Positions 25,158-40,753 of a DNA stretch of 64,000 nt are shown piece after piece. Origin of the DNA: Niallia sp. XMNu-256 (GTDB taxonomy: Bacteria > Bacillota > Bacilli > Bacillales > Cytobacillaceae). Every line of letters begins with the position of its first letter. Within the stretch, counting starts at the first letter, position 1. Below the pieces are notes generated by a model. That model made no database searches and was not told where the DNA came from. It saw only the letters and a list, made by a program, of their open reading frames with translations. The stretch lies in NCBI RefSeq assembly GCF_036670015.1, contig NZ_CP137636.1, positions 1,218,501 to 1,282,500 of the forward strand, read 5' to 3'. Position numbers and translations under genes: made by a program.

Positions 25158-25397
25158 ATGTCAAATCAAATTAAAATTTATAATCTGATTGTTAACGGTA
25201 TTGCACAAAATGCCAATGTTGATATTGGTAGAACGGTACAAAATAGTCATACTGCAAATGTAAAATTATATGGAGCAAATTTTTCAATGGGAGATTTTTC
25301 GCCTACACATTCTGTAATTGTTACAAAAGTCAAAGATCCCGATTATAGTGATCAAGGTCAAACAGAGAACCCCTCTTCAGCTGACAACAGTCAATAG
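25158..25397 (+). CDS. GerPA/GerPF-like spore protein
   Basis: This 79-residue protein has the small-spore-protein pattern seen in GerPA/Ger[18 protein letters not shown], a short Asn/Ser/Thr linker, [12 protein letters not shown] and the terminal DPDYSDQ. These proteins lie in the coat and help germinants cross it. AGGAGGC precedes the ATG, and CATACTTTA upstream fits a sigma-E/K -10 box. It is the single plus-strand GerP-like gene of the first module and converges on the DUF421 gene. Confidence 0.75.
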
Positions 25398-25435
25398 ATA
25401 TTTATTTTAGATTAAATGGACCGAGAATGGTTTAT

Positions 25436-26134
25436 TCAATGAAGAGCATCATTTTTTGGATCAATGTATAGTGTACCGTCCTTTTGAATTTCAGCATAAA
25501 AGACATCCGTTATAGAATTTATACCGTGATCTTTTAATTGGTTCTCTAACCATTGTCGATTTAGGTTTAATTTTTCTAAGTTCTCTTCCTTAATTTTACC
25601 ATCGGAAATGACAGATGTAGAAATAGGGAATACATGGGCATTTTTCTGGTTTATATTTAAATCACCCTTTGTCAAAGGCTGCTTAGATTCTTTTTTCATA
25701 ACTGAAAGAGTTCCATCTGTTTCAAAAATGGCATAATTGACTTCTGATAGGGAAAATACGTTTTTCTTTCGTAATAAAGTATTTAAAGCGTCTATGTCTA
25801 AACGAACTTTACGGAGTTCATCTTCCATAATTTTTCCCTTTTTCACAAGAATTCTAGGCTCACCTTCAATAGCTACTCGTAACTTTTGAGATTTTAGATC
25901 TAAGATGCTTATAAAAATGGTAAAAGCAGTCCAAGCGATAAGCGCTAGTAATCCATTAGTGATAGTGAGGGAAGCATCAATGGCAAGAGAGCCCCCTATA
26001 TGTCCTATTGAGATTGCAGAGATAAAATTAAAAAAGGTCATTTGGGATATTTCTTTTCTGCCCATAAGTCTGGTTAAAAATAATAAAGTTACGAAAGCAA
26101 TTGCAAGTCTTAGGATTAATTCTGGAATCGTCAT
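25436..26134 (-). CDS. DUF421 (YetF-like) membrane protein, first module
   Basis: The 232-residue protein has three N-terminal helices with TRLMGRKEISQMTFFNF and a cytosolic part with GEPRILVKKGKIMEDELRK and LLRKKNVFSLSEVNYAIFE, the two conserved YetF/DUF421 blocks. Family members are often sporulation-associated, and their function is unknown. A second DUF421 gene lies in the second module at 37707-38282, but the two differ in length and in the C-terminal extension. AGGAG is upstream of the ATG. Confidence 0.9.
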   Translation of the reverse strand: MTIPELILRLAIAFVTLLFLTRLMGRKEISQMTFFNFISAISIGHIGGSLAIDASLTITNGLLALIAWTAFTIFISILDLKSQKLRVAIEGEPRILVKKGKIMEDELRKVRLDIDALNTLLRKKNVFSLSEVNYAIFETDGTLSVMKKESKQPLTKGDLNINQKNAHVFPISTSVISDGKIKEENLEKLNLNRQWLENQLKDHGINSITDVFYAEIQKDGTLYIDPKNDALH

Positions 26135-26219
26135 TTTATTAACTCCTTATAGTAAAAAGATACCTACTCCTATCATATTGTTCGCCCCTTTAAATTTAAA
26201 ATGTATTTTTTCTAATAAA

Positions 26220-26268
26220 AAAACGTAGACAAACTAAAACAGAAGACAGTTTAGTTTGTCTACGTTTT
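26220..26268. terminator. Long perfect hairpin upstream of DUF421 gene
   Basis: The 19-bp arms at 26220-26238 and 26250-26268 (starting AAAACGTAGAC) are perfect with an 11-base loop. The T-run at the end favours plus-strand termination, but no plus gene precedes it closely. Confidence 0.6.
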
Positions 26269-26297
26269 AATGCACTACCCTTCAATTTCACGCAAAA

Positions 26298-26338
26298 AAA
26301 TCCCCCGATTTTGATGAGGTTTTTATCAAATTGGGGAT
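26298..26338 (-). terminator. Terminator of the GerP-like minus-strand cluster
   Basis: An imperfect AATCCCC/GGGGATT hairpin with ATTTTGAT/ATCAAAT extension lies 58 bp beyond the last GerP-like gene on the minus strand. Confidence 0.65.
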
Positions 26339-26395
26339 TGTTTATTATTTATGATGTTCTTGACTACAAATATATTATCGAATCTAGAAAGAATT

Positions 26396-26632
26396 TTATA
26401 TGACACTGTTTTTAATGGCATTACTATCACTAGCATCGGGGTCAATGACGGCGGCTGCTTGGACCGCTACTGGGGAAAGGTCTCCGTTTTGTTCTCCAAA
26501 CGCTTGATTTCGCTTATATGTCACAAGTTGATCGATTAATTGCAGAGTCCCCATATTCGCTACGGCACCATTATCAATTGTATTTACTTTGAATCCAAGT
26601 ATATTAAAGACCATTGGTGAAACAAAAACCAT
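26396..26632 (-). CDS. GerPA/PF-like small protein A
   Basis: The 78 residues show the pattern of this paralogous family: NILGFKVNTIDNGAVANMG, then TYKRNQAFGEQNGDLSP and a terminal VIDPDASDSN. It is about 60% identical to its neighbour at 26696, so the pair arose by tandem duplication. Predicted mostly beta with no membrane helix. A role in the spore coat is inferred from similarity to GerPA/GerPF and from the sporulation genes around it. Confidence 0.75.
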   Translation of the reverse strand: MVFVSPMVFNILGFKVNTIDNGAVANMGTLQLIDQLVTYKRNQAFGEQNGDLSPVAVQAAAVIDPDASDSNAIKNSVI

Positions 26633-26695
26633 ATTTCAACACATCCCTGTCTTTATGTTATTCATAGCCAAACGTACCATCGTCTTAAGCTTGCA

Positions 26696-26929
26696 CTATA
26701 CAATGCTTGCTTTGATGGAGTTGCTGTCAGAGATATCCGGGTCCAATACCAGAGAGTTTGGCAGTACCGTAGGGGATAAATCTCCATTTTGTTCTCCAAA
26801 CCCTTGATTTCGTTTATACGAAACAAACTGATCCAGGTGTTGACTAGGGCCGAGATTTACGATTGCCCCATTGTCAATGGCATTAATCTTAATTCCTAAG
26901 ATATTTATTGATACAGGTGCAAATGGCAT
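26696..26929 (-). CDS. GerPA/PF-like small protein B
   Basis: The 77-residue paralogue has INILGIKINAIDNGAIVNLG, SYKRNQGFGEQNGDLSP and VLDPDISDSN. It is the closest relative of the gene at 26396. The 11-bp gap to the upstream gene at 26941 and AAGGAG before the start suggest co-transcription. Confidence 0.8.
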   Translation of the reverse strand: MPFAPVSINILGIKINAIDNGAIVNLGPSQHLDQFVSYKRNQGFGEQNGDLSPTVLPNSLVLDPDISDSNSIKASIV

Positions 26930-26940
26930 GTTATAACTCC

Positions 26941-27183
26941 TTATGGGTTAGCCGTTTCAAAAGAGGAGTTAGAATCAATTTGGTCTCGGTCATCGACAGC
27001 GCTCTTTGTAGCGACAAAATTGGTCCCATCTCCCATGTTTTGGCCTAACCCTTGGTTTTTTTTATCAGAATTATGCCATTCCGCTAATAAATTTTGTCCT
27101 ACATTTATTGCGGAAGCATTCTCGAATGAATTTACCTTAATGATATTAATATTGATATTAATGTATGGAACAGGACCTCCCAT
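26941..27183 (-). CDS. GerPA/PF-like small protein C
   Basis: This 80-residue member has repeated Asn-Ile dipeptides (INININIIKVNSFENASAIN), a central LLAEWHNSDKKNQGLGQNMGD and a final DDRDQIDSN. The central W-x-x-x-x-K-x-N-Q-G-(F/L)-G core is the family hallmark also found in the second module. AGGAGG lies before its ATG. Confidence 0.8.
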   Translation of the reverse strand: MGGPVPYINININIIKVNSFENASAINVGQNLLAEWHNSDKKNQGLGQNMGDGTNFVATKSAVDDRDQIDSNSSFETANP

Positions 27184-27208
27184 TTAAATCCTCCTAAATA
27201 ATACGTAT

Positions 27209-27436
27209 TCAGTTACTTTTTTGAATTAGAAAATCCTCGACGTCATGATCAAAAGTCGCGCTTGTTGTGTTGATTCTGAAACACCCGTCAGCTAACTGCT
27301 GGCCAAAGCCTTGATTTTTCTTTGCTGATACATTTCTGTTTTGTATTATGGTAGAACTAAAAGATATTGAACTGCAATGATCGATATTATTTAGTTTTAT
27401 TTCGGTAATATTTACCTTTGTCGGTATAAAGAACAT
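27209..27436 (-). CDS. GerPA/PF-like small protein D
   Basis: The first gene of the minus-strand set (75 residues) has VNITEIKLNNIDHCSSIS, SAKKNQGFGQQLADG and a degenerate FDHDVEDF end. It is more divergent than the others and holds two Cys. The preceding intergenic region (27437-27668) is shared with the divergent Hsp20 gene and should contain both promoters. Confidence 0.75.
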   Translation of the reverse strand: MFFIPTKVNITEIKLNNIDHCSSISFSSTIIQNRNVSAKKNQGFGQQLADGCFRINTTSATFDHDVEDFLIQKSN

Positions 27437-27668
27437 GGGTCATTATCCTTTCTGTGCTTTTATTACGGGTACTTAACTATATGATGGTTATAAATGAAAT
27501 ATGTTTTCAGTTAGTGTGGACGAGCTAAATGGAATGATCGATTTTAAGTTTTAATTTTAGCAGTGAGTGTACATTTTTTTATGAATGATTTAATAAATCG
27601 TAAATATCATTATAAATGAGGGCATGTAACGGGATTCATATCGAGCGTTACAAGGGGGTGGATCCATC

Positions 27669-28142
27669 ATGGATATGAATAAGATCTTACAGTGGATGGA
27701 TTTGGCAAAAAAATACCAAACCGGTGATTTTTGGGATGGGATATTTGATCAATCCTCCTTTGAGGAATTTATGAAAAGCAATGTTGATGGAAATCATTCA
27801 GGTGAAACTGCTATGAAAAAAGGGCAGGGAAGAAATTTTCCACAAACAGATATTTACATAACGGATGAGGACGTTTTATTAATAATGGAATTAGCGGGTT
27901 ACGTAAAAGAAAATATTCAATTATCTGTGTCAGGAACAAGCCTATTAATCAAAGGGAACAATCATGAAATGATCACCGGAGAGCCAGTACAGCAAGAACG
28001 ATATCATGGCCCCTTTGAACGTGTGATCCAGCTTCCTGAGCCGACATATCCGAATCGAATTCGTGCTAAATTTAATAATGGACTCTTATTTATTTCATAT
28101 AAACGACAGTTTTTAAAAGAAGAGCGAGTAAATATTGAATAA
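27669..28142 (+). CDS. Hsp20/alpha-crystallin family protein, first module
   Basis: The 157-residue protein has a variable N-terminus and an alpha-crystallin domain from about residue 60: TDIYITDEDVLLIMELAGYV, SLLIKGNN, FERVIQLPEP and the FNNGLLFISYKRQ strand. It resembles coat-associated CotM/CotP more than general chaperones because of its divergent termini and its context. AAGGGGGTGG precedes the ATG. It is followed 50 bp later by a GerPC-like gene, as in the second module. Confidence 0.85.
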   Translation: MDMNKILQWMDLAKKYQTGDFWDGIFDQSSFEEFMKSNVDGNHSGETAMKKGQGRNFPQTDIYITDEDVLLIMELAGYVKENIQLSVSGTSLLIKGNNHEMITGEPVQQERYHGPFERVIQLPEPTYPNRIRAKFNNGLLFISYKRQFLKEERVNIE

Positions 28143-28192
28143 CCGAACGAGTGGAATCATTGGGTTAATAATTTTACTAAGCGTGGGGAGAC

Positions 28193-29275
28193 ATGATGTC
28201 TATAAAAGGGATGTTCAATCAAAAAGGTCAAAAGAAAAACGAAATTGAGTGGGAAAAACAAATTTTAAGAATCAATGCACTTGAGGTTCAAATTAAAGGC
28301 TTATTAGAGTTTGAGAAAAAGTTTCGAACATCAATGTCTATGGACAGAATTGCAGAAAAAAAAGAGCAGAGCCGAGTAAAGAATCAGGGGAAGGAAGCTC
28401 AAGTAAAAAGCTTAGAGGATACCCAGAAATTTAAGGAGATCAATAAAAGATTAGCGGAACTAGGACAAAGAGTCTACCAGTTGGAAAACGATAAGGAAGA
28501 AAAAGGAACATTGCTCATAAATCCTCTTCCGCAAGAAGAAGAACATAAAGATGATGAACGTTTAATCCATTTAATTCAACAGCTCATTTTAGAAAAGGAT
28601 ACCTTTCATCTCCAAAGGGAAAAAGAATTGATTGAAAAAATCCAGGCTTTAGAAAATCAAATTTCGATAATCAAACTTAAAGTAGAACAATCCAAAATAG
28701 ATTATAATCAGACACCACCTGAAAATATTGCAACAGTTCAACGTACAAATGAAAAAAGAGACGAGAATGAAGTTTTTTATACGCAGTTGGAAAGGAGAGT
28801 ACAGATCTTAGAACACAATTTGTTATTGGTTAATGAAGTTCAGGTCAGTTTGTTGAAACGGATGGAGGAACTAATTGAAACAAGCAATGAATTACTGAAA
28901 CAAATGGACGAAACAGAAGCTTCAATACAGCAGGAAGACCCCATTTGTAAAACATTGTATGTCGATAAACTATATTTAGAAAAATATGAACAAAATAATA
29001 ACTTCGCACAGCTTGGCATCAAAAATCTTAATGGAGCTTTAAATATTGGTGCAACATATGGGAAAGAAACCATACCGCAGAAAATCACTGAGCAAATAAA
29101 AGGGGATATGGCAAAAATGAAGGAAATGAAAGAGGAAATGGAAAATAGTCAATCTAGTATGGACAAGCCAGATGACATGCAGGTTGATGAATCTTCCACC
29201 TCAGAGCAAGCCGTCAATCCAACTGAAGAAAATCCTCAATATACTGATATCGTTATTGAGGATGAAGAGACTTAA
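28193..29275 (+). CDS. Long coiled-coil protein with GerPC-like motif
   Basis: The 360-residue protein is mostly charged coiled coil. Near residues 255-290 it has LYVDKLYLEKYEQNN and LGIKNLNGALNIGATYG, which match the conserved end of GerPC (…LNIGL). GerPC itself is about 200 residues, so this is a longer relative. An acidic tail follows. In the gerP operon GerPC is thought to organise the small GerP proteins in the coat, and a scaffold role here is an inference. A terminator follows. Confidence 0.7.
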   Translation: MMSIKGMFNQKGQKKNEIEWEKQILRINALEVQIKGLLEFEKKFRTSMSMDRIAEKKEQSRVKNQGKEAQVKSLEDTQKFKEINKRLAELGQRVYQLENDKEEKGTLLINPLPQEEEHKDDERLIHLIQQLILEKDTFHLQREKELIEKIQALENQISIIKLKVEQSKIDYNQTPPENIATVQRTNEKRDENEVFYTQLERRVQILEHNLLLVNEVQVSLLKRMEELIETSNELLKQMDETEASIQQEDPICKTLYVDKLYLEKYEQNNNFAQLGIKNLNGALNIGATYGKETIPQKITEQIKGDMAKMKEMKEEMENSQSSMDKPDDMQVDESSTSEQAVNPTEENPQYTDIVIEDEET

Positions 29276-29278
29276 TAG

Positions 29279-29311
29279 GGCTTCTAAATCCCTGAAGCCC
29301 TATTTTTTACC
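29279..29311 (+). terminator. Rho-independent terminator
   Basis: GGGCTTC/GAAGCCC stem followed by a T-run, directly after the GerPC-like gene. Confidence 0.8.
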
Positions 29312-29412
29312 GTATACTTTTGCGATAAGAGTAAAACAATTTGTAACATTAAATTTAGTTAAGGTTGTACATATTTAATCTATAAGGAGTTGTAAATAAA
29401 CTGAGTTTTGTC

Positions 29413-29667
29413 TTACCACCAGAAAAATGGGAGCAAAGCTAATCCTACGATTGCCCCTAAAGCGATTCCCCAGCCAAACCCCCCACCACCGTAATAACCA
29501 TAACCAAAGCCACCTAGATTTCTTCTAGATCTTAGCGGTTGCAGAAATACTCTGTTTGGAGAAACACGATGAATAATTCCTCTATGAACTCTCCCGTCGC
29601 GGGTTCTGATCTCAACAGCTCTACCTCTATGTTTGTTACATAAACCATGATAATAACCGAGTGACAT
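29413..29667 (-). CDS. Sm-like small protein with glycine/aromatic tail
   Basis: In 84 residues there is a short Sm/LSm-like barrel pattern (VEIRTRDGRVHRGIIHRV, then NRVFLQPL) and a tail rich in Gly, Tyr and Phe ending in a hydrophobic helix (IALGAIVGLALLPFFWW). The same order occurs in the His-rich protein at 33032. Its sigma-K-type promoter (29698-29724) makes a late mother-cell, coat-related role likely. No named family is certain. Confidence 0.7.
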   Translation of the reverse strand: MSLGYYHGLCNKHRGRAVEIRTRDGRVHRGIIHRVSPNRVFLQPLRSRRNLGGFGYGYYGGGGFGWGIALGAIVGLALLPFFWW

Positions 29668-29697
29668 AAGTTTCCCTCCATTCTAATTAGTACAAGA

Positions 29698-29724
29698 TAT
29701 CCTATGCTATTTATTAGAAGTGGT
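29698..29724 (-). promoter_or_regulatory. Candidate sigma-K promoter
   Basis: On the minus strand AC is followed after 16 bases by CATAGGATA, matching AC-N16/17-CATAnnnTA. It ends about 31 bp before the start of the Sm-like gene. Confidence 0.6.
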
Positions 29725-30021
29725 TAAGGACAAACATCCTAGGTTTATAGTGGAAGTGTGTTGTAACTTTATTAATTGATGAGATTAGACAAATGTTTAG
29801 GAAACATTTAATTGGTTTCTTACATCATGATCTGTATTTAGACATTTATGCATTGGATTTATTTTTGGGTAGCTCGAGTCAGGCATTAAATGACTCTTTA
29901 AAGGGGCTTGTGGATAGGGTGACTTTAGGTTATAGCCCAAAAGTTAAAAAATACGATTTTATCCAATCAAAAAATCGTGTAATGACATAGTCTATTTTAT
30001 ATCGCTTGGAGGTGATTGTAT

Positions 30022-30120
30022 ATGAGTGGAGCTGGATACGGATCCGGATCTGGATTTGCTTTGTTAGTAGTGTTATTTATTCTGCTGGTTATTATTGGAG
30101 CCTCTTGGTGGGGCTACTAA
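30022..30120 (+). CDS. YjcZ-family sporulation micro-protein (32 residues)
   Basis: Encodes MSGAGYGSGSGFALLVVLFI and ends with a Trp/Gly/Tyr motif. The Gly/Ser-rich start plus the [16 protein letters not shown] helix define the YjcZ/YosQ-type spore proteins. GGAGGTGATT lies before the ATG, and CATAGTCTA at 29986-29994 is a sigma-E/K-like -10 box. It is the first of two adjacent copies. Confidence 0.85.
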   Translation: MSGAGYGSGSGFALLVVLFILLVIIGASWWGY

Positions 30121-30158
30121 GACACTAAAAAATCAATAAACACGTTAGGAGCGTTATT

Positions 30159-30293
30159 ATGTTTGGTTGTGGTGGAGTTGGAGGCTATGGATACGGCGGC
30201 TATGGCTATGGTGGAGGTTTTAGAGGAGGATTCGCGTTAATAGTAGTTTTATTTATCCTTCTCATTATTGTTGGAGCTACTTTATGGTGTTAA
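30159..30293 (+). CDS. YjcZ-family sporulation micro-protein (44 residues)
   Basis: A longer Gly-Tyr-rich N-terminus with a Cys at residue 4 precedes the [19 protein letters not shown] helix. The gap from the previous YjcZ gene is 38 bp, and a terminator follows, so the two are probably co-transcribed. Confidence 0.85.
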
Positions 30294-30306
30294 AATAGTC
30301 AGAAAG

Positions 30307-30340
30307 AAAAAAAGATGTCGGGAGTACCGGCATCTTTTTT
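30307..30340 (+). terminator. Rho-independent terminator
   Basis: AAAAAAGATG-CGG pairs with CCG-CATCTTTTTT after the two YjcZ genes. Confidence 0.8.
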
Positions 30341-30413
30341 ATGCTTTCTGTTTAATAAATTTTGAGATTATATATAGTGGGAGTTTTGAAAAGATGGGAT
30401 CTATACGTAACCT

Positions 30414-31184
30414 TCAAAGAGAAAACTGATTAGAATCGGTGGATAGTAAACCATTTGCAGTGGAATGATTTTTTTCTATATAGTTTTTAACTAAAAAGTA
30501 GCCAACAGCGTATCCCGCCAATTTAGGGTATAAAGGGGATCCGTATAATAGCTCGTGGTGTTTAGGGTTTGATTTTAAAATCATTCGGTTCGGAACAATT
30601 AAATTTTCCCACATGTGAAGCAACTCTTTGTCCGTATAAAAAGATATCCAAGGGGATAAAAATTCTTCCCCAACCCTTTCACGTACGGTATTTTCAGCTA
30701 ACCCTTCTAAAATCATCGTATCTAATAATGTGTAGATGCCTTCATGCTTTGGAAAATACGTTAAGCGACAAACATGGTTGTATTCATGTGTTAGCAACGA
30801 TCTTATTTCCGCCTCGTTATTCTCCTCTGAAATAAACAGAAATAATTTATCCTTAAAGGCTAAACCAGATTTTCCGTTAAACTCAATCTTCATTGTTTCG
30901 TTACTTGTATCGGATGGAAAAATAAAAATGGGGATATCTGGACCATTCCACAACCGTTGAAGGTCCTGTGCTTCGTTCTGAACAATCTCCCATACTTGAT
31001 TATTTTGTAGCTTAATGATTTGATCTTTTCCGTTTGTAAGAGGGGAATACATCCCATGTAGTAATAAATAATCATAAATTTCAGAGGCATAAGCACCATC
31101 AAAAAGTCCTCTAACCTTTTCGCACATTTCAACAGGTTGATTATATTCTTCTTGAAGCCAATAATCTGTCCTAATTACTTTCAT
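30414..31184 (-). CDS. YjaZ-like DUF2268 zinc protease
   Basis: The 256-residue protein carries the zincin motif HEYNHVCRL near residue 139 and a downstream Glu in ILEGLAENTVRE, the expected third ligand region. This is the DUF2268/YjaZ family of predicted Zn-dependent proteases. No signal peptide is seen, so it should act in the cytosol. A near-perfect sigma-K promoter lies upstream (31215-31242), pointing to mother-cell expression late in sporulation. AGGGATT precedes the ATG. Confidence 0.85.
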   Translation of the reverse strand: MKVIRTDYWLQEEYNQPVEMCEKVRGLFDGAYASEIYDYLLLHGMYSPLTNGKDQIIKLQNNQVWEIVQNEAQDLQRLWNGPDIPIFIFPSDTSNETMKIEFNGKSGLAFKDKLFLFISEENNEAEIRSLLTHEYNHVCRLTYFPKHEGIYTLLDTMILEGLAENTVRERVGEEFLSPWISFYTDKELLHMWENLIVPNRMILKSNPKHHELLYGSPLYPKLAGYAVGYFLVKNYIEKNHSTANGLLSTDSNQFSL

Positions 31185-31214
31185 GCCAATCCCTCCAATT
31201 CTTCCTCAATGTAA

Positions 31215-31604: not shown

Positions 31605-31669
31605 AAACGCATTGTATAGGTGAACTAAACCTTTTTATATAAAAAAATTTACAAGGGTTGGGAGAAAAG

Positions 31670-32383
31670 GTGAATTACACATATCTAGATTGTTTGGCTT
31701 TATTTGGAGTCGGCGGCGCCCATCCAGGTGGTCTGCAATTGACCAAAAAACTTTTATCAAGAGAAAAAATAAATGAACAAACCATTGTACTGGATGTTGG
31801 ATGTGGTACAGGACAAACTTCTGCCTATATGGCTGAAAAGTATAATTGTAAAATAATCGGTTTAGATAACAATGAAATGATGTTGGAAAAAGCAAGGAAA
31901 AGGTTTCAATCTAAAAATCATCCTATTGAAACTAGACTTGGACGTGTCGAAAGTTTGCCGTTTGGTGAGGAATCCTTTGATTTGGTTCTATCTGAATCGG
32001 TCGCTGCATTTACAGATGTCTCCAAAACCCTCCCAGAGTTTAGGCGAGTATTGAAAGCGGATGGTGTTTTATTGGCGATTGAAATGGTTCTAGAGGAACA
32101 ACTACCAGAGGAAGAATTATTCCCAATAACGGAGTTTTATGGAGTTCCTTTGATTCTGACGGAACCGCAGTGGCGTTCCTTTTTTCAAAAGGCAGGTTTC
32201 CAGGAAATAAATATAGAGAAATTTCATTTGACAGCCCATGAACCTGACCTTGACAATACTACGGATTTTTCACTTTCTGAGCAGTTGGATGAAGAATTAT
32301 ATAACATCCTGGACCAGCATGAGCAATTCTCAAAAAGATATCAAAATGTACTAAGTTTCCGTGTGTTTAGATGCTGTGTTTGA
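31670..32383 (+). CDS. SAM-dependent methyltransferase, plus-strand paralogue
   Basis: This class I methyltransferase has the SAM motif VLDVGCGTGQTSAYMA, GLDNNEMMLEKARKR and SFDLVLSESVAAF. It shares the unusual N-terminal LxxFGVGGAHPGG motif with the gene at 33516. GTG 31670 is preferred over TTG 31658, since GGGAG then has workable spacing and the length matches the paralogue. The substrate is unknown. The two paralogues converge on the GNAT and Sm-like genes between them. Confidence 0.85.
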   Translation: MNYTYLDCLALFGVGGAHPGGLQLTKKLLSREKINEQTIVLDVGCGTGQTSAYMAEKYNCKIIGLDNNEMMLEKARKRFQSKNHPIETRLGRVESLPFGEESFDLVLSESVAAFTDVSKTLPEFRRVLKADGVLLAIEMVLEEQLPEEELFPITEFYGVPLILTEPQWRSFFQKAGFQEINIEKFHLTAHEPDLDNTTDFSLSEQLDEELYNILDQHEQFSKRYQNVLSFRVFRCCV

Positions 32384-33031: not shown

Positions 33032-33382
33032 ATGCAACCATATATGAATCAGAATCCTATTTATGACGAAAGGGACCATGACCATCATCATAAGTGCAAA
33101 AAGCATTTATATCAATTTATTCAAGTAGAGTTAAAAGATGGTACCATTTATCAGGGGATTCTTCACAGCTATGATAGAGATAAAATGTATATTCTTATGC
33201 CTAAAATGCATCATCAACTTCACCAACACCATCAACACCATCAACATCATCACGAGTCCATTCATATGGAAGATGAGAGCAGCAGCAGACAGTTCTTTCC
33301 TTTCTTTGGACCATTTGGATTGTTTGGCTTTCCATTCTTTGGAGTTAGAAGATTTGGCCCGTTTTTCCCGTTTTTTATTTAA
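33032..33382 (+). CDS. Histidine-rich Sm-like protein with phenylalanine-rich tail
   Basis: The 116 residues contain a short Sm-like barrel (FIQVELKDGTIYQGILHSYD, then DKMYILMPK), a His/Gln metal-binding-type stretch (QLHQHHQHHQHHH) and a hydrophobic Phe/Gly/Pro tail. The barrel aligns with that of the 29413 protein. Further His cluster near residue 20 with a Cys. RBS GAGGAGG. Probably a coat or metal-binding protein; this is inferred only from composition and neighbourhood. Confidence 0.7.
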   Translation: MQPYMNQNPIYDERDHDHHHKCKKHLYQFIQVELKDGTIYQGILHSYDRDKMYILMPKMHHQLHQHHQHHQHHHESIHMEDESSSRQFFPFFGPFGLFGFPFFGVRRFGPFFPFFI

Positions 33383-33390
33383 ATATAACC

Positions 33391-33515: not shown

Positions 33516-34235
33516 CTATTTCGTACAGGAAAATACCCGATAGTCCAAAGTTCCATGGTATTTTGCCATAATATAAACATGTTGATTCATAATGGTGTAC
33601 AGTTCAGGTTTAATATCATTTGAATAAAAGAATTCTGGCGTCACATTCTGTTGGGAGATTGGTTGTACTTGCTTATGGATGTTTATCCCTTTAAACCCAG
33701 TCTGTTGTAACAAAGTAATCCAATCACTTTCTAGCAAAAGGGAATCTATTCCGTAAAATTGAGTAATTTCCTTCTCATTACTTGGGTGAACACGTTGATT
33801 TATAGTAAGTTCATTAGCAATAAAACGGCCGCCATATTTTAATAATCGGTAAATTTCAGTTAATGATCTTGGTTTATTGACAAATGAAAGAACAGATTCA
33901 GAAATGATCATATCAAATGTGTCGTCTTTTAAAGGACAATTATCGATCGACCCTTGAATGATTTCAACCGGTAATTGGTATCTTGCCATTCTCTTTCTAG
34001 CTTTTTCGACCATGACAGGGTTAATGTCTATCCCGGTTACAATGGCTCCGTATTGGGCAGCTAAGTAGGCTGCAGTTTGACCAGTACCACAACCAACATC
34101 TAAAATGCGAGTAGTGGGGGTGACTTTCTCAGACTTGAATATTTCTAACGTCAGCTCAATTCCCCCTGGATGGGCCCCACCAACACCAAACTTAGACAAG
34201 AAATCTAAATAGATTGAGGTCTCAATTCTAACCAC
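33516..34235 (-). CDS. SAM-dependent methyltransferase, minus-strand paralogue
   Basis: This 239-residue class I methyltransferase has the same LSKFGVGGAHPGG N-terminal motif as the 31670 protein, the SAM site ILDVGCGTGQTAAYLA and GIDINPVMVEKARKRM. It is about 40% identical to that paralogue along its length. GTG start with GGGAGTAGG upstream. Substrate unknown. Confidence 0.85.
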   Translation of the reverse strand: MVRIETSIYLDFLSKFGVGGAHPGGIELTLEIFKSEKVTPTTRILDVGCGTGQTAAYLAAQYGAIVTGIDINPVMVEKARKRMARYQLPVEIIQGSIDNCPLKDDTFDMIISESVLSFVNKPRSLTEIYRLLKYGGRFIANELTINQRVHPSNEKEITQFYGIDSLLLESDWITLLQQTGFKGINIHKQVQPISQQNVTPEFFYSNDIKPELYTIMNQHVYIMAKYHGTLDYRVFSCTK

Positions 34236-34281
34236 CTACTCCCATTTGATTTTAATGAGAAAATTAAATATAATGTCGAAA

Positions 34282-35121: not shown

Positions 35122-35125
35122 GCCA

Positions 35126-35512
35126 TTAATCCCCCCATGATTCCATCAAAGGATTCTCTACAACCTTTGTTATATTATTTTGACTATCTACATAGGCCAC
35201 CTTCGTTTTTAAATATTTGATTTCTACCTCGGTAAATATTCCTGTGCTTAAAATGATCACAATGTCTCCCTTCGAAAAAAGGTGAGCTGGCGGGCCGTTT
35301 AAACAGATAACACCTGAATGTGCCTCTCCAGGAATGGCATAGGTTTTCCAGCGAGTTGCATTGCGGAGATTGGTAATTTGTACGATCTCATATGGCAAGA
35401 TATCGGCTGCTTTCATGAGTTCTTTATCGATTGTAATGCTTCCAGGATAATTTAAATCGGCCTCTGTTACAGTAGCTCTATGGATTTTGCCTTTACACAT
35501 ATAACGTTGCAT
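35126..35512 (-). CDS. panD: Aspartate 1-decarboxylase (PanD)
   Basis: From ATG 35512 (GGAGG 5 bp upstream) the product has 128 residues, the usual PanD length. It shows GKIHRATVTEADL (Lys9), the self-processing YPGSITID site where Ser becomes the pyruvoyl group, ATRWKTYAIPG (Arg54/Tyr58 equivalents) and SGVICLNGPPAH. The normal NGAAA is NGPPA here, and the C-terminus differs from the norm. PanD makes beta-alanine from aspartate for pantothenate, but panB and panC are not nearby. Pairing with an ATP-grasp coat-type gene is unusual. Confidence 0.85.
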   Translation of the reverse strand: MQRYMCKGKIHRATVTEADLNYPGSITIDKELMKAADILPYEIVQITNLRNATRWKTYAIPGEAHSGVICLNGPPAHLFSKGDIVIILSTGIFTEVEIKYLKTKVAYVDSQNNITKVVENPLMESWGD

Positions 35513-35665
35513 CTTAATCCTCCAAAATATAAACTTTTTAACATCTGTATATGAAGTTTCAAAATACAATGTGCCTAGAATGGAAGGAAATCGAAAAATA
35601 AATTATTAAAAATTTATAAAATCGGAGGAAGGAATTTTATTAAAAATCTTAGTAATCTATACAAA

Positions 35666-35698
35666 GAGAGGATTCTAAATAGATATTAGAATCCCCTC
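35666..35698. terminator. Terminator near YjcZ gene
   Basis: GAGAGGATTCTAA/TTAGAATCCCCTC stem, 24 bp beyond the minus-strand YjcZ gene. Confidence 0.7.
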
Positions 35699-35722
35699 AA
35701 CGTGTGCTGTTTTTTCAAAAAA

Positions 35723-35836
35723 TTAGTACCCGCTCATAAATTGAGTACCAACAATAACCAACAGAATAAAGAGAACGACAATTAAAGCAAAACTAGAACC
35801 CTTGCTGTAACCACCGCCGTATCCGCCATCTGACAT
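35723..35836 (-). CDS. YjcZ-family sporulation micro-protein (37 residues)
   Basis: The product [20 protein letters not shown] continues with the conserved [10 protein letters not shown] helix and ends QFMSGY. GGAGG lies before the ATG. CATACAATA upstream fits a sigma-E/K -10. It is monocistronic with its own terminator. Confidence 0.85.
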
Positions 35837-35910
35837 AATATCTAACCTCCATTTATGAAAGATAACATATTGTATGCAAATTTGATTATGGTGAAATGGA
35901 CAAGCATGTA

Positions 35911-36000
35911 ATAGGTGAAGCGAAGAGTTAACAAGAATTATCCGACCGTACTTTCAACTTGTTTAAGAAATTGCGGAACAGGTCTATCAAAAAAGGTTGA
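35911..36000 (+). pseudogene. Remnant of a histidine phosphatase gene
   Basis: AGGTGAAGCGAAGAGTTAAC and the following ~60 bp align with 41400-41490 of the intact phosphatase gene (encoding [17 protein letters not shown]). An in-frame TAA (in AGTTAACAA) and missing flanks show it is dead. Confidence 0.75.
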
Positions 36001-36069
36001 ATTCTATGAAAGGAATTGAAGAATACAGGAAGTAAATTAAATACCCAGAATAGGGTGAAAATTCTGTCG

Positions 36070-36165
36070 GTAAGAGACTTTCATCCCCCATTGATGGTTA
36101 GATGAAGATAGCAGCATGCTGGTCACACAGACGTTGCCGTAGGTGTATTTAGTCTGTATTCAACG
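36070..36165 (+). repeat. Dispersed repeat family 2, copy A
   Basis: GCTGGTCACACAGACGTTGC and GTCTGTATTCAA match the minus strand at 11.8 kb and 59.95 kb. A GGTAAGAGACTTTCA block 50 bp upstream resembles the GTAAGACTC-type end seen at 19.86 and 59.89 kb. No gene is maintained. Confidence 0.5.
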
Positions 36166-36285
36166 TGCTTTTTATTAAGCGCATGGGTCTTTAACATCAT
36201 TCATGCTATTGCAAAATACGTTCGTAAAAAAATAATTCAAGGATAGGGCTTGTCCAAAAATGGAAAGCAGCAAAATAGAAATGAA

Positions 36286-37272
36286 TCATGGGAAAAAGAC
36301 TGGATGTGGATTCTGTTTAAGTGTTCGAATCAAATGCTGTGTATGCCAAATGGCAGGAATATTAAAATTTAGGTTTAAAACAGTTTCAATAAAGTGAACT
36401 TCTGGAATCTCTTTTTCTTCATTCCAATTACGAAGTGATGTTTCTAATAAGGAAAAATTTTGCGTCCATGCTTTCTTGTCCTCTTTTGTAAATGTGCCAG
36501 ATTTACTCCATTCATCGATAATCGTATATAAAAAATAAATATCGTTGCCCACTCCATTCAATGTTTTGACAAGGGTTTCACCATCTTGGAGTTGAGATTG
36601 GCTTTTGTGTGCAAAGGGGTTAAATTTCAAACTTAATTTTGCTTTTTGAATTTGTTTTTCTGACTCCTGTAATTCTTGATGTATGTAATTGAATTGTTGT
36701 TTAAAATAGTTTTGTTGTAAGGCTCCTGCATCAATCCAAGCTGCCAAGGATTTGAGACTTTTCGCTAATAGGTTTGGTAATCCATCCACATGATGAATGG
36801 CTTTTTTTGTAAAATTTGGTGGATATACATATTGTAGGATTAGGGCTACCACTACTCCAATAATTGAGTCTCGGACGCGATCTAATCCATAGCCGGATAG
36901 TTTATGTTCAAATTCTAGAACAAGCAAAACACTTAGCGCAATTTGATGAAGCGTAGTGCCATTTGCTCTTAAGAAAAAAGGGAAGATAAGACTGACCAAC
37001 ATAATGAGCGCAATTGATAAACCGTTGGCATGTAAAGAGGATGCGAGAATATATACCGATACTCCTCCAATGATCGTTCCTAAAATTCTAGCCACACCGA
37101 AACGAATCGATTTAAAAATAGTCGCCTGTAAACAGAGAATAAGTGATATGGGTCCTAAATAGGGATATTTCGAGCCAAAGAAAATAGATAATTCCCATGA
37201 AATAGCCGAACCTATTACTATTTTAAGAATGAGGATCCATTTCTCAGGACCAGTTAGTTTTATTTTATTCAC
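36286..37272 (-). CDS. FUSC/aromatic acid exporter family protein
   Basis: The protein (328 residues from GTG 37272) has a membrane half with SWELSIFFGSKYPYLGPIS, FGVARILGTIIGGVSVYI and LDRVRDSIIGVVVALI, and a long soluble helical half. This is the ArAE/FUSC layout of putative exporters of aromatic acids. GGAGG lies six bases before GTG 37272, so this start is preferred over the further upstream ATG. Confidence 0.85.
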   Translation of the reverse strand: MNKIKLTGPEKWILILKIVIGSAISWELSIFFGSKYPYLGPISLILCLQATIFKSIRFGVARILGTIIGGVSVYILASSLHANGLSIALIMLVSLIFPFFLRANGTTLHQIALSVLLVLEFEHKLSGYGLDRVRDSIIGVVVALILQYVYPPNFTKKAIHHVDGLPNLLAKSLKSLAAWIDAGALQQNYFKQQFNYIHQELQESEKQIQKAKLSLKFNPFAHKSQSQLQDGETLVKTLNGVGNDIYFLYTIIDEWSKSGTFTKEDKKAWTQNFSLLETSLRNWNEEKEIPEVHFIETVLNLNFNIPAIWHTQHLIRTLKQNPHPVFFP

Positions 37273-37373
37273 GATAATCCTCCTGCTAAAAATCATCCAC
37301 CATTAGTTTTCATTTTGTTATGTTTTTTATACAAAATTAGGATTAAAGTTAGCTATTTAAATGAAGTCAAAAA

Positions 37374-37401
37374 AAAGCCGAACGCTAATGGTATCGGCTT
37401 T
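37374..37401 (-). terminator. Terminator of YjcZ gene, duplicated copy 1
   Basis: AAAGCCGA/TCGGCTTT stem; identical arms are present at 41741-41768 in the duplicate. Confidence 0.75.
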
Positions 37402-37447
37402 GATTCTATTCTGGTGAAGCTGATTTAGAAATATGTTGTTTTATAGA

Positions 37448-37555
37448 TTAGTAAAATCCGCCGCCACAAAAACTGGCGCCAATGATGATTAAAAGGATAA
37501 ACAATACGATTAATAAGGCGAAACCTCCGCCTGCGAAACCAACTGCTCCAGACAT
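37448..37555 (-). CDS. YjcZ-family micro-protein, duplicate 1 (35 residues)
   Basis: Encodes MSGAVGFAGGGFALLIVLFI and ends GASFCGGGFY. Nearly identical to the gene at 41819 including flanks, so a segment of about 250 bp (37370-37625 and 41738-42000) was duplicated. AGGAGGTGATTTT precedes the ATG. Confidence 0.9.
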   Translation of the reverse strand: MSGAVGFAGGGFALLIVLFILLIIIGASFCGGGFY

Positions 37556-37561
37556 AAAATC

Positions 37562-37583
37562 ACCTCCTCAGGATTTAGGAGGT
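37562..37583 (-). promoter_or_regulatory. Shine-Dalgarno-masking hairpin, copy 1
   Basis: On the minus strand ACCTCCT and the RBS AGGAGGT are perfect complements with an 8-base loop, so the leader can hide its own RBS. Confidence 0.6.
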
Positions 37584-37706
37584 ATGTGTATGGGTCCATA
37601 CATACTATGTGCTAAATAGGCAGTTGACACTTTGTATTAATAAAAGTTTTCGAATACCTAGGCAAATTTGAAAAAAGCTTTCGTGAAAAAGGCATTATAG
37701 AGGCTT

Positions 37707-38282
37707 TCATTCAGTGGTTTTTTTGAGATGAACGTTTTCAACAGACCCATTAGATAAGTGATGTTCATTTTCTACAAATTGTTGGACTAAAATAGGGAGT
37801 TGTTCCTTTAACGTTTTTTCAAGTTCCCCAACAGTAACGGGTTTTGCATGTCTCATTAACTCATATCCCAGCTGTCCGGTAATCTCAATGGAAGCATTTT
37901 TAACATCTGAAGTTGATGAAATGCCTTTTTCTCGTAACTTGGCTTCCAGCTGATCAATGGTTATACGCAACTTTTTCAGGTTGTGGGTTATAACTTTACC
38001 CTCCTGAATAACAGGAGTTGGTTTCCCGATGAATAATCTTTCAACCTTTTTGGATTGAGTGGTTAAAAATTGAATAATGAGCAGTAATGATACAAGCGAA
38101 CATAAAGTTAATATCGTTTTGATTAATCCGGTTTCAGAAATAGCATGGCCTGTTGTTGAGGCAATGGCTAAAATTGTGATAATCTCTAATCCTGACATTT
38201 CACTTACTGTTTTTTTTCCTGCAATGCGCAACAAACAAAAACCGATGAATAGTATCGTGATTGCTTCCCAAATGTAGTTCAT
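37707..38282 (-). CDS. DUF421 (YetF-like) membrane protein, second module
   Basis: The protein (191 residues from ATG 38282) has three helices with LLRIAGKKTVSEMSGLEI, then KPTPVIQEGKVITHNLKK and LREKGISSTSDVKNASIEI, the DUF421 cytosolic blocks. GAGGG lies before ATG 38282; an upstream TTG extends it by four codons. It is divergent from the GerP-like double protein at 38494, and shares the intergenic region with it. Confidence 0.85.
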   Translation of the reverse strand: MNYIWEAITILFIGFCLLRIAGKKTVSEMSGLEIITILAIASTTGHAISETGLIKTILTLCSLVSLLLIIQFLTTQSKKVERLFIGKPTPVIQEGKVITHNLKKLRITIDQLEAKLREKGISSTSDVKNASIEITGQLGYELMRHAKPVTVGELEKTLKEQLPILVQQFVENEHHLSNGSVENVHLKKTTE

Positions 38283-38424
38283 AGCAGCCCTCAATTTATT
38301 TCTTAATGTCTTGATCTTAAATTTCCCTTATTTTTCTTATCTATACTCCTTTGAAGTACTTTTAAAAAGCTTTGTTTTAGGACAAAGACGGATGAAAAGG
38401 ATTCTATAGTTCGATTAAAATGGA

Positions 38425-38452
38425 ACCTTAATAAGCATTCAAACATAGTGTA
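38425..38452 (+). promoter_or_regulatory. Candidate sigma-K promoter of second GerP-like module
   Basis: AC (38425-38426), 17 bases, then CATAGTGTA (38444-38452), a full match to AC-N17-CATAnnnTA. A transcript would start about 34 bases before TTG 38494. Confidence 0.65.
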
Positions 38453-38493
38453 ATTTATAACTACATTCTATTATGAGTAAGGATTGAGCACAA

Positions 38494-38973
38494 TTGAACC
38501 GAAAAAGTACCATTAATCAATTTCAATTAAGTCAAATTACAGTAAATACGATTGATACCGCCTCTGGAATTTTTATTGGGACAAATTATGCACAAAATTG
38601 GTCCTCTAAACGAAAAAATAATTATGGTTTTGGGTCGGTAAGTCAATCTAAAGTGTCAAATAATATTAGTTATGTTATCGATGAGGATTGGGTAGATACC
38701 CCAATCGAAAATAAACCGTCTATTTTATATGATGGAGATCGAGCGGGAAATGCAAATGAAATTGAGATTGGTGAAATAAACGTCAATGTTTTAGATACAG
38801 GTGCTGCTGTTTCAGTGGGAGAAAATGATTTAAATGCATGGAGTGCTCACAGTAAGCGGAATGCAGGTCAAGGAAGGTTCGCGGGAGAAATACAAAATAC
38901 ACAAAACTCTTCTCTTATTTTAGATAGTGATGTAATGGACGCTCAAATGAATGATTATAAAGGACTATTATAA
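38494..38973 (+). CDS. Two-domain GerPA/PF-like protein
   Basis: The 159 residues contain two family units in tandem. Unit 1: ITVNTIDTASGIFIG, NWSSKRKNNYGFG, then YVIDEDWVD. Unit 2: INVNVLDTGAAVSVG, AWSAHSKRNAGQGRFAG, then LILDSDVMD. Each has the W/K-x-N-x-G-x-G core. The start is TTG with only a weak AAGGA upstream. It leads the second module, downstream of the sigma-K-type promoter. Confidence 0.75.
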   Translation: MNRKSTINQFQLSQITVNTIDTASGIFIGTNYAQNWSSKRKNNYGFGSVSQSKVSNNISYVIDEDWVDTPIENKPSILYDGDRAGNANEIEIGEINVNVLDTGAAVSVGENDLNAWSAHSKRNAGQGRFAGEIQNTQNSSLILDSDVMDAQMNDYKGLL

Positions 38974-38996
38974 GGCAAAAAAGGAGGAGGATTTAT

Positions 38997-39242
38997 GTGG
39001 CCATTGCTTTTACATTAGGTGCAATTAATGTAAATTCCCAACAGACAAATGCAGTCGTCACAGTTGGGGAAAATCAATTACCAGGATGGGCCGCTCACAG
39101 GAAGGTAAATAATGGGTATGGTTTCTTTGCTGGAAATGTATTAAACGCGGGGAATATGGCTTCCGTTATCGATCCTGACGGTGTGGATGGAATGATGAAT
39201 AACCAAAATATTGCTCCGGGAGTACAAAGTCAAGCTCTTTAA
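38997..39242 (+). CDS. GerPA/PF-like small protein E
   Basis: The 81 residues read LGAINVNSQQTNAVVTVG, GWAAHRKVNNGYGFFAGN and VIDPDGVDG, closest to unit 2 of the preceding protein. The start is GTG 38997. It overlaps an ATG at 38995, which opens only a 7-codon frame, so GTG is needed. AAGGAGGAGG lies just upstream. Confidence 0.75.
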   Translation: MAIAFTLGAINVNSQQTNAVVTVGENQLPGWAAHRKVNNGYGFFAGNVLNAGNMASVIDPDGVDGMMNNQNIAPGVQSQAL

Positions 39243-39395
39243 TGATAGGGCTTGATTTTTTATATGGAATAAGCGGAATGAAAGTTACTAGCTACTAAAA
39301 CATTAGCATACGAAATGATTAAATTCATATAGATAAATAAAGAGGTTCTTATAGAATGAAAAAAGAATTTCAGTCCTGTAAGGGAGGTTGCAAGA

Positions 39396-39797
39396 GTGGT
39401 AAAACCTCATTTTCACTCTAATCTAAAAGAGACGTTAGGAGAGGACTTTAACGAATTATTATATGAAATTGCCCCTTTTATGGAGCCTCGAATAGATATC
39501 TATGAGTCAGATTTATATTTCAACATTTCTGTAGATTTGGCTGGTGCACGTAAAGAAGATCTTTCATTAAAATGTTGTAACAACATGTTGTTGATTGAGG
39601 GAATGATCCAAACTGACCACAAGATAGCATCTTATAAAAAAATTCAAAAAGAACGGTTTTATGGTTCTTTTAAAAGAGAAGTTTTACTTCCTAAAAACTG
39701 TGAACTTCAACATATACAAGCTATTTTTGAAAATGGAGTTTTATCAATTACCATTCCGTTATTAGAGGGAACAATGAAAAATAAAGATACGAGGTAA
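39396..39797 (+). CDS. Hsp20/alpha-crystallin family protein, second module
   Basis: The 133 residues have an alpha-crystallin domain (DIYESDLYFNISVDLAGA, MLLIEGMI, FKREVLLPKNCE, FENGVLSITIPL). It is shorter than the first-module Hsp20 and only distantly similar, with two Cys in KCCNNM. GTG start after GGGAGG. It lies between GerP-like genes, so CotM/CotP-like coat association is the most likely role. Confidence 0.85.
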   Translation: MVKPHFHSNLKETLGEDFNELLYEIAPFMEPRIDIYESDLYFNISVDLAGARKEDLSLKCCNNMLLIEGMIQTDHKIASYKKIQKERFYGSFKREVLLPKNCELQHIQAIFENGVLSITIPLLEGTMKNKDTR

Positions 39798-39809
39798 AGG
39801 AGATTATTG

Positions 39810-39995
39810 ATGACTTCTATTAAACATGGATTTTTAAAAATTGATACTATAACAGCTTCATCAGGATTATTTATTGGAACAAATATTCATCAAGGCCGGA
39901 CAAGCAAATCCTCTATCAACGAAGGGTTTGGAAAGATAAAAGGAAAGCGAAATAACGTTAAAGGGAATACCGCGATGATCAAGAAAAAAATTTAA
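39810..39995 (+). CDS. Short, C-terminally reduced GerPA/PF-like protein
   Basis: The 61 residues keep LKIDTITASSGLFIG and the SINEGFGKIKG core, but lack the terminal Asp-rich DxDxxD motif. A basic tail replaces it. ATG 39810 with AAAGGAG 7 bp upstream is preferred over the overlapping TTG 39807. It is the most degenerate member, perhaps decaying. Confidence 0.65.
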   Translation: MTSIKHGFLKIDTITASSGLFIGTNIHQGRTSKSSINEGFGKIKGKRNNVKGNTAMIKKKI

Positions 39996-40007
39996 AAAGG
40001 AATTGGA

Positions 40008-40388
40008 ATGATGGATGAAGAGAAGATGATGAATAAAATTGAAGAATTGGTTGAAAAAATAAAACTACTTGAAACAGCCATTGATAATAAAAGGAATCCC
40101 CCTATTATAGTAAAAGTCGATGTTAAGGACCTTCATCTCAACAAATTAACTTTGGAAGAACTAGCCTTTCATCTTGATAAGTTAGATATCAAAGAAATTA
40201 GTGGAATGCTCAATCTCGGAAATACTTTTTCTCCTCGAATCCATCCTAAATCAAAAGATAAACAGCCATCATCCAAAGAAAATCGAGAACCTCAAGAAGA
40301 GGAGGAAAGAAATGATTTCAATGAAATTCAAGTCACGATTAATTATCAATCAGTGCCTTATACAATAACGGAGGGAAAGGATGAATAA
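40008..40388 (+). CDS. GerPC-like protein, second module
   Basis: A 126-residue protein with a short coiled-coil start, then VKVDVKDLHLNKLTLEEL and IKEISGMLNLGNTF, equivalent to the LxIKNLNGALNIGATY stretch of the 28193 protein. The rest is acidic, Gln/Glu-rich. It has lost the long coiled coil. It overlaps the next gene's RBS and sits 2 bp from it. Confidence 0.7.
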   Translation: MMDEEKMMNKIEELVEKIKLLETAIDNKRNPPIIVKVDVKDLHLNKLTLEELAFHLDKLDIKEISGMLNLGNTFSPRIHPKSKDKQPSSKENREPQEEEERNDFNEIQVTINYQSVPYTITEGKDE

Positions 40389-40390
40389 AT

Positions 40391-40753
40391 TTGAAACGAT
40401 TTTCCCCTTCTTTTTTTATTGGTTCTATTTCGATTGGGACGGTTGAAGGAGCCTCCTGTGTGAACTTTGGGAATAATCTCCCTAGTGGCTTTGTGAATTA
40501 TAAAAAACATAATCAAGGTTTTGGGTCGATTTCTGGTGATAACAATGATATTTACGACATATTAGCGACACTAGAGGAAAAGGATATCCATGATACGTTC
40601 CATTACGATGGATTTAAAGACGAAACATACTCACAGGCTTTACAAGAAATCGAAAACGAAATGTTGAACACAGAAGTAGAAATTGAAGGACAAGAAGAGT
40701 CGATGGAAATGGATAATGAAATTGATGAAAGTCCTCGAACTAAGGATCGATGA
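40391..40753 (+). CDS. GerPA/PF-like protein with acidic tail
   Basis: The family unit (FIGSISIGTVEGASCVNFG, YKKHNQGFGSISGD) is followed by a ~75-residue acidic, Glu-rich tail. The start is TTG 40391, with GGAGGG/AAAGG in the 3' end of the preceding gene. It closes the second module. Confidence 0.7.
   Translation: MKRFSPSFFIGSISIGTVEGASCVNFGNNLPSGFVNYKKHNQGFGSISGDNNDIYDILATLEEKDIHDTFHYDGFKDETYSQALQEIENEMLNTEVEIEGQEESMEMDNEIDESPRTKDR

Follow-up and report, generated by a model that had tools for sequence, protein, structure and literature searches.

Linked GerPA/PF-like, Hsp20 and GerPC-like genes in Niallia sp. XMNu-256: candidate GerP-type spore-coat modules in addition to the gerP operon

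The genome of Niallia sp. XMNu-256 (4.36 Mb) was analysed in a window of 64,000 nucleotides, which is the whole stretch from position 1218501 to 1282500 of contig C1. This window contains two distinct modules of genes for GerPA/PF-like proteins, a small heat-shock protein (Hsp20) and a GerPC-like protein. Module 1 (type II, 26396-29275) begins with four leftward GerPA/PF-like genes, which are followed by rightward genes for Hsp20 and for a GerPC-like protein. In module 2 (type III, 38494-40753) all genes are read rightward; their order is a tandem GerPF-like gene, a GerPF-like gene, Hsp20, a GerPF-like gene, a short GerPC-like gene and a last GerPF-like gene. The modules are flanked by two DUF421 genes and by a separate GerPA/PF-like gene. 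All features are listed in Table 1. A third, simpler set in the same genome consists of two GerPF-like genes and an Hsp20 gene (module 3, type I; L002, 5254-6227). Three of the five Hsp20 genes of this genome thus adjoin GerPF-like genes, and the association is therefore beyond chance within this genome. The canonical gerP operon is located elsewhere (L001, 6655-8679); its GerPA, GerPF and GerPC were identified by Pfam, and GerPB, GerPD and GerPE by order and size. As far as the parts of the literature considered here describe them, GerP proteins reside in the inner coat, and they are believed to assist the passage of germinants (PMC11841064, PMC2817736).

Table 1. Features of the two modules and of their immediate neighbours. 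Positions refer to the window; "FJAT-27251" denotes identity to the syntenic gene of Bacillus sp. FJAT-27251; "own profile" is the profile seeded with the nine window genes and gerP sequences.
Feature	Position	Strand	Evidence
Separate GerPA/PF-like gene, outside type II	25158..25397	+	PF10676 3e-16; 58% identity to type I gene in L002
DUF421 (YetF-like) neighbour, judged non-member	25436..26134	-	PF04239 3e-41, YetF_N 3e-11; 52% relative in L102
Module 1 GerPA/PF-like, 78 aa	26396..26632	-	gerPA 7e-5, under cut-off; 88% FJAT-27251
Module 1 GerPA/PF-like, 77 aa	26696..26929	-	gerPA 1.1e-5, under cut-off; 74% FJAT-27251
Module 1 GerPA/PF-like, 80 aa	26941..27183	-	gerPA 6.8e-4, under cut-off; 96% FJAT-27251
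Module 1 GerPA/PF-like, 75 aa, first gene of leftward unit	27209..27436	-	no Pfam match; own profile; 69% FJAT-27251
Module 1 Hsp20, 157 aa	27669..28142	+	PF00011 7e-12; among ten type II Hsp20s, support 100/97
Module 1 long GerPC-like, 360 aa, coiled coil and LNIG core	28193..29275	+	aligned core; 55% FJAT-27251 (363 columns)
Short DUF421 neighbour, judged non-member	37707..38294	-	PF04239 5e-22; 71.5% relative beside L053 module
Sigma-K-like promoter ACCTTAATAAGCATTCAAACATAGTGTA	38425..38452	+	69 bases upstream of 38494 start codon
Module 2 tandem two-domain GerPA/PF-like, 159 aa	38494..38973	+	PF10676 3e-8, two stretches; 28-row family A6; AlphaFold model
Module 2 GerPA/PF-like, 81 aa	38997..39242	+	gerPA 0.008; own profile; 84% FJAT-27251
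Module 2 Hsp20, 133 aa	39396..39797	+	PF00011 4e-18; in 19-member type III Hsp20 group, support 100/98
Module 2 GerPA/PF-like, 62 aa	39807..39995	+	own profile; weak GerPB 0.054; 77% FJAT-27251
Module 2 short GerPC-like, 126 aa	40008..40388	+	family motif leading to 67 loci; homology of family to canonical GerPC
Module 2 GerPA/PF-like with acidic tail, 120 aa	40391..40753	+	no Pfam match; own profile; 83% FJAT-27251

An initial annotation, made from the letters of the window, had named four gene types (DUF421, GerPA/PF-like, Hsp20, GerPC-like) at two loci. Open reading frames for all four are present at both, and those of DUF421 and Hsp20 were confirmed by Pfam. The first locus had been delimited as 25158-29275; its genes exist, but the one at 25158-25397 belongs with another module type, as it resembles a gene of module 3. 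The size of 60-85 residues given for the GerPA/PF-like proteins is correct for most of them and wrong for the products of 38494-38973 and 40391-40753.

The nine small GerPA/PF-like genes of the window differ in their response to PF10676. The profile exceeds its cut-off in two (25158, 38494), matches weakly (1.1e-5 to 0.008) in four (26396, 26696, 26941, 38997) and yields no match in three (27209, 39807, 40391). A single profile of our own joins all nine with 63.7-145.4 bits; this holds by construction, because the nine genes are among its seeds. For the one GerPF-like protein tried, NCBIfam gave no match. Elsewhere in the same genome (L003:4640-4999), a single GerPF-like gene encodes 119 aa and has neither an Hsp20 nor a GerPC-like partner.

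When the GerPC-like proteins of the window were aligned with their relatives, a common coiled coil and a core "LDxLDIKELSGxLN(I/L)G" became apparent. Neither 28193-29275 nor 40008-40388 is matched by PF10737 (GerPC) at E values up to 1, and NCBIfam finds nothing for either protein; as a control, the canonical GerPC of this genome scores 7e-53. In a profile-profile comparison, however, 49 short proteins (40008 and 48 relatives) matched six canonical GerPCs with 95.5% and an E value of 1.4e-8 over 56 columns, which span the coil and the core. The proposal that the proteins ending in LNIG or LNLG are GerPC-like is thus borne out, although PF10737 itself is silent. According to the alignment, the GerPC-like proteins lack the C-terminal region that canonical GerPC has. 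AlphaFold was confident for the coil alone (residues 2-29). The longest GerPC-like frame encodes 677 aa in Scopulibacillus daqui (L083:7659-9692) and has no Pfam match.

The linkage of these genes was analysed by scanning contigs of named genomes once with a GerPC-like peptide motif alone; the neighbouring genes were not used, and 67 loci were obtained. The surroundings were searched with profiles built here, applying thresholds of 1e-2 for GerPF-like and for GerPC-like, 1e-3 for Hsp20 and 1e-5 for DUF421. A GerPC-like frame is in place at 66 loci; L063, which has none, entered the counts with the span of its motif match, and L076, L078 and L092 possibly contain a canonical-like GerPC. Of the 67 loci, 61 have a GerPF-like gene at a distance of up to 3 kb. 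Hsp20 is found within the same distance at 59 (52 strong, E<1e-15), compared to 0.27 expected from gene density; expected numbers of this kind are based on rounded genome sizes. Both genes are present within 3 kb at 55 loci, or at 48 if a strong Hsp20 is demanded. These 48 loci are spread over 16 of 25 genus labels (one being the label of a metagenome-assembled genome), including Neobacillus, Peribacillus, Niallia, Halobacillus, Paenibacillus, Alicyclobacillus and Desulfallas. The numbers of genomes and their genus labels, like the spoIVA cross-table entries given below, were transcribed by hand. The loci stem from a single peptide pattern and are phylogenetically non-independent; because they are related, the number of independent cases is lower than 67. 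The linkage was also viewed from the side of the GerPF-like genes: among the matches listed and fetched for this genome and 40 relatives, 30 clusters lie outside gerP, and a strong Hsp20 is found within 3 kb of 18 of them (20 if weak ones are included). The GerPA/PF-like, Hsp20 and GerPC-like genes form a real, old unit. The suggestion that the combination has been conserved as a functional unit therefore stands for these three gene types, which occur together across genera, and falls for DUF421: random association fails as a description of the former and largely holds for the latter.

That DUF421 is nevertheless an integral fourth member, which links coat assembly to the spore membrane, is suggested by the window itself, where a DUF421 gene adjoins both modules. 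A third DUF421 gene is located some 9 kb away from module 3, and a relative of each window gene occurs once near a module of the same type: that of the second gene (71.5% identity) stands beside a type III module in L053, and that of the first (52%) near a type II module in L102. Moreover, the DUF421 proteins YetF and YdfS act in spore resistance and germination according to the part of the source considered (PMC12548441). Across the 67 loci, however, DUF421 is present within 5 kb at only three (L053, L086, L102), compared to an expected number of 1.1 (P 0.10), and its position and strand vary between the loci that have one. Two of 26 GerPF-like clusters of the relatives, among the matches listed, contain DUF421 within 3 kb (L019, L029; P 0.03), but both consist of lone GerPF-like genes without Hsp20.

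The genome of Bacillus sp. FJAT-27251 (L045) is informative in this respect. It has kept the stretch from the type II to the type III module, with eight intervening genes in the same order, namely those for an Sm-like protein, DUF2268, a methyltransferase, GNAT, a second Sm-like protein, a second methyltransferase, YheCD and PanD (62-85% identity). Compared to module 1 of the window, the four GerPF-like proteins are 69-96%, Hsp20 is 76% and the GerPC-like protein is 55% identical. The type III module is completely kept (64-85% identity), and the PanD gene ends about 180 bases upstream of it. The syntenic region, of which 38.5 kb were examined, contains neither a DUF421 gene nor counterparts of the gene at 25158 and of the FUSC gene; the nearest DUF421 matches of this genome, at 404 kb and at 1566 kb, are remote from the stretch at 568-579 kb. 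DUF421 as a module member was rejected on the basis of the 3 of 67 loci and of this syntenic region. A four-gene unit is thus already largely refuted and very improbable; DUF421 is probably an occasional neighbour and not a part of the modules, and the study of the modules can omit it.

The modules were sorted into four types. Type I comprises two GerPF-like genes followed by Hsp20 (L002, L025, L027, L032, L034-L037), with a GerPC-like match after the set in L027, L032 and L037. Type II is represented by module 1 of the window and most of L102-L111, type III by module 2 and L045-L061, and type IV by the remaining loci, for example those of Halobacillus. An unrooted maximum-likelihood tree was calculated for 93 Hsp20 sequences, in which two pairs (L028/L050, L043/L077) consist of identical rows that derive from one genome or from nearly identical ones. 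A group of 41 rows (support 99/96) contains the complete type III set of 19 sequences and 22 of 28 type IV sequences, and a group of 26 rows (99/92) contains mainly types I and II, plus the non-module L127 and the type IV sequence L099. A third group unites 21 of 22 other Hsp20s (92/96, which is under the full-support mark of the tool). Within this tree, the type III Hsp20s form one group (100/98), as do 10 of 11 type II Hsp20s including that of the window (100/97). The two window Hsp20s fall in different groups and are 36% identical (86 columns); they therefore belong to different lineages. The notion that the two window modules are recent copies of each other was rejected by this tree, by the Hsp20 identity and by the syntenic comparison, in agreement with the initial annotation.

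A second, very divergent Hsp20-like protein is encoded beside the module Hsp20 at L027:7630-8103, L032:6937-7413, L034:7264-7740 and L069:7286-7717, and a divergent one without a module Hsp20 beside it at L040:14030-14491 and L044:5788-6312. Of four that were scanned with Pfam, that of L069 alone passes the HSP20 cut-off.

The tree and the gene arrangement also bear on the question whether the Hsp20s protect the spore or the mother cell in a general manner, with the GerP-like proteins being unrelated and the linkage securing no more than a common timing. In Bacillus thuringiensis, deletion of an hsp20 gene, not necessarily a module-linked one, is reported to reduce sporulation and crystal protein and to change the proteome broadly, as far as the source was considered (PMC6737285). 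The module Hsp20s, however, mostly group by module type, and in the two modules of the window the next module gene follows Hsp20 after 50 and 9 bases, respectively. General protection is accordingly regarded as fairly unlikely. Alternatively, coat genes might merely gather in hot spots of the chromosome and have no joint function. The interval between the modules indeed carries other coat-type genes (YppG, YheCD and YjcZ). But among the loci compared, with flanks of up to 8 kb, the intervening genes recur in FJAT-27251 and otherwise almost nowhere: YheCD has a weak match in L070, and GNAT is found in another four loci. The three module gene types, by contrast, remain linked in different genera. 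Such spore-gene islands have only a small chance of being the correct explanation.

A link to sporulation is indicated by two kinds of data, genome content and upstream sites. The spoIVA gene is present in 148 of 200 sampled genomes of the class. Among the matches listed, the 55 genomes whose GerPC-like match reaches E<=1e-3 all have it (P 2e-9); they include weak matches, some of them to canonical GerPC. For matches under 1e-6 the corresponding number, likewise among those listed, is 32 of 32 (P 2e-5).

The consensus of sigma-K promoters is AC-N14..17-CATANNNTA. This pattern was searched in the 150 bases upstream of 258 unit starts, which include the gerP units of L040. It was found at 41 starts, compared to 2.64 (maximum 7) in 100 rounds of first-order Markov resampling and to 8 of 796 control frames; the enrichment before modules is thus about 15-fold. 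In this genome, such sites precede the first gene of module 2 by 69 bases and that of module 3 by 62 bases. Upstream of the leftward unit of module 1 (27209-27436), a sigma-E-like ACATATT-N14-CATATAGTT was read by eye.

Each module is therefore likely to specify a late mother-cell spore-coat subassembly of the GerP type that has its own small heat-shock chaperone and exists in addition to the gerP operon. The late coat function proposed at the outset fits, because the genes are linked across genera, occur in genomes with spoIVA and are preceded by sigma-K-like sites; DUF421 has to be deleted from that proposal. In a plausible sequence of events, sigma-K would activate the genes late in the mother cell, as the promoter-like sites suggest; at the leftward unit of module 1, sigma-E may take its place. 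The GerPC-like coiled-coil protein, which has the GerPC core and no GerPC C-terminal part, may then serve as a scaffold or anchor; its homology to GerPC is established, and this role would follow from it. Several small, asparagine-rich GerPA/PF-like beta proteins would assemble on it. The linked Hsp20 is presumed to bind the GerPF-like and GerPC-like proteins as an assembly chaperone: it could keep the GerPA/PF-like proteins soluble until deposition, or stay in the layer in the manner supposed for CotM/CotP-type coat proteins. The product would be an extra coat or interspace layer, which, by analogy to GerP, might tune the passage of germinants and other small molecules. Localisation in the coat and a role in germination are thus predicted for the modules.

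Several results weigh against this interpretation. There is no Hsp20 match within 3 kb at 8 of the 67 loci and no GerPF-like match at 6, and 10 of the 30 GerPF-like clusters outside gerP, among the matches listed, have no Hsp20 within 3 kb. The distribution is patchy: GerPC-like matches at E<1e-8 occur in 9 genomes of a set of 41 that comprises Niallia sp. XMNu-256 and 40 relatives. The four congeners are not among these 9, and the short GerPC-like gene is found in none of them; the single match of each has the length of canonical GerPC. Five type IV Hsp20s lie outside both module groups of the tree (L015, L018, the second copy of L038, L074, L095), and the group of other Hsp20s falls short of full support (92/96). 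Furthermore, the strict sigma-K pattern is unevenly distributed with respect to the first gene of a unit (37 of 151 GerPF-like, but 3 of 85 Hsp20 and 1 of 22 GerPC-like) and is absent from module 1.

A more specific reading holds that the modules build a chaperone-guarded, amyloid-like coat polymer. The GerPA/PF-like proteins, rich in asparagine, glycine and serine, would be subunits with a beta-solenoid fold, stacked as fibres or as a sheet, and Hsp20 would block premature fibre growth. The GerPC-like protein would act as nucleator or anchor, given the apparent resemblance of its LDIKELSGxLNIG core to one beta-arch of the GerPF-like repeat. A comparison of the GerPC core with the GerPF-like hairpin by hhalign gave a P value of 0.015, and values of 0.034, 0.0077 and 0.0072 after the cores had been excised around the motif. 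The controls, reversed or unrelated, ranged from 0.13 to 0.84. These values are no more than weakly suggestive of a homology of core and hairpin. For the tandem protein of 38494, AlphaFold predicted two like beta domains; the best model reached a pLDDT of 65, and the other four of five 42-46. Neither Foldseek nor VIA gave a significant match for the tandem model. The search for a solved relative or an amyloid by sequence found no chain of the PDB for alignment A1 at E<=1 or for A6 at E<=10, and the sole match of alignment A4 was a designed coil (0.076). The polymer is improbable; were it real, there would be a broader family of coat polymers, with classical GerP as its simplest form.

One of the known systems closest to the GerP-type subassembly favoured here is the gerPABCDEF operon, which likewise encodes GerPA/PF-domain proteins and a protein with a coiled coil and the GerPC core. 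In contrast to the operon, the modules add Hsp20, more GerPF-like genes (also as tandem fusions) and another gene order, and their GerPC-like proteins lack the canonical C-terminal region. No Hsp20 gene lies inside the six gerP operons inspected (L001, L021-L024, L040). CotM and CotP are alpha-crystallin-type spore-coat proteins of Bacillus subtilis, in which ydfR, ydfS and cotP are presumably adjacent. These two proteins resemble the module Hsp20s in having the Hsp20/alpha-crystallin domain, which Pfam finds in the window Hsp20s; location in the coat under late mother-cell control would be a further common trait. The part of the source considered lists CotM and CotP as GerE-repressed coat genes and, in contrast to the modules, states no linkage to GerP-like genes (PMC11841064). 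For Bacillus anthracis, gerPF2 and gerPF3 have been described as extra GerPF paralogues outside gerP with overlapping germination function; unlike the modules, one is in an operon with an SLH/Excalibur protein, and the part of the source considered mentions no Hsp20 or GerPC-like partner (PMC2817736). According to the parts considered, YetF, YdfS and 2Duf are DUF421 proteins of the spore inner membrane (PMC10126465, PMC12548441). They are of the same family (PF04239) as the two neighbouring window genes, but this family is no conserved part of the modules.

The initial annotation had presented the combined system as undescribed, and no account of the linkage of GerP-like, Hsp20 and GerPC-like genes was found in the listed titles and abstract starts of the CC-licensed literature of PMC. 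The one paper found with both GerPC and Hsp20 lists them, in the part considered, as separate genes of a Virgibacillus genome (PMC10556750), and a paper on Moorella spores contains none of the terms looked for (PMC8745062). In the genomes examined, additional GerP-like sets with an associated chaperone are present in other spore-forming bacteria, and some genomes have more than one; the shortened GerPC-like protein is missed by Pfam and NCBIfam. The modules offer a compact system for testing the roles of GerPA/PF and GerPC. They are also a candidate reason for species differences in germination and permeability. Possibly, a small heat-shock protein is here devoted to the building of a single spore structure.

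Some further features of the regions were observed. About 2 kb from module 3, a coat-like protein of approximately ten GYGMGHGGYPG repeats is encoded (L002:2903-3412). Near-identical short sporulation peptides of the YjcZ type flank module 2 (37448-37555, 41819-42001), and the second is matched by PF09680. Between the modules, two small proteins with low-complexity tails (29413-29667, 33032-33382) give weak matches to Sm-like and Ataxin-2 SM domains and are kept in FJAT-27251. The genes at 31658-32383 and 33516-34235 are paralogous, code for SAM methyltransferases and are arranged face to face; each cross-matches the syntenic gene of the other at 42-44% identity. The G+C content of the window is 0.39-0.43 in positions 1-12000 and 0.34-0.39 past about 12 kb.

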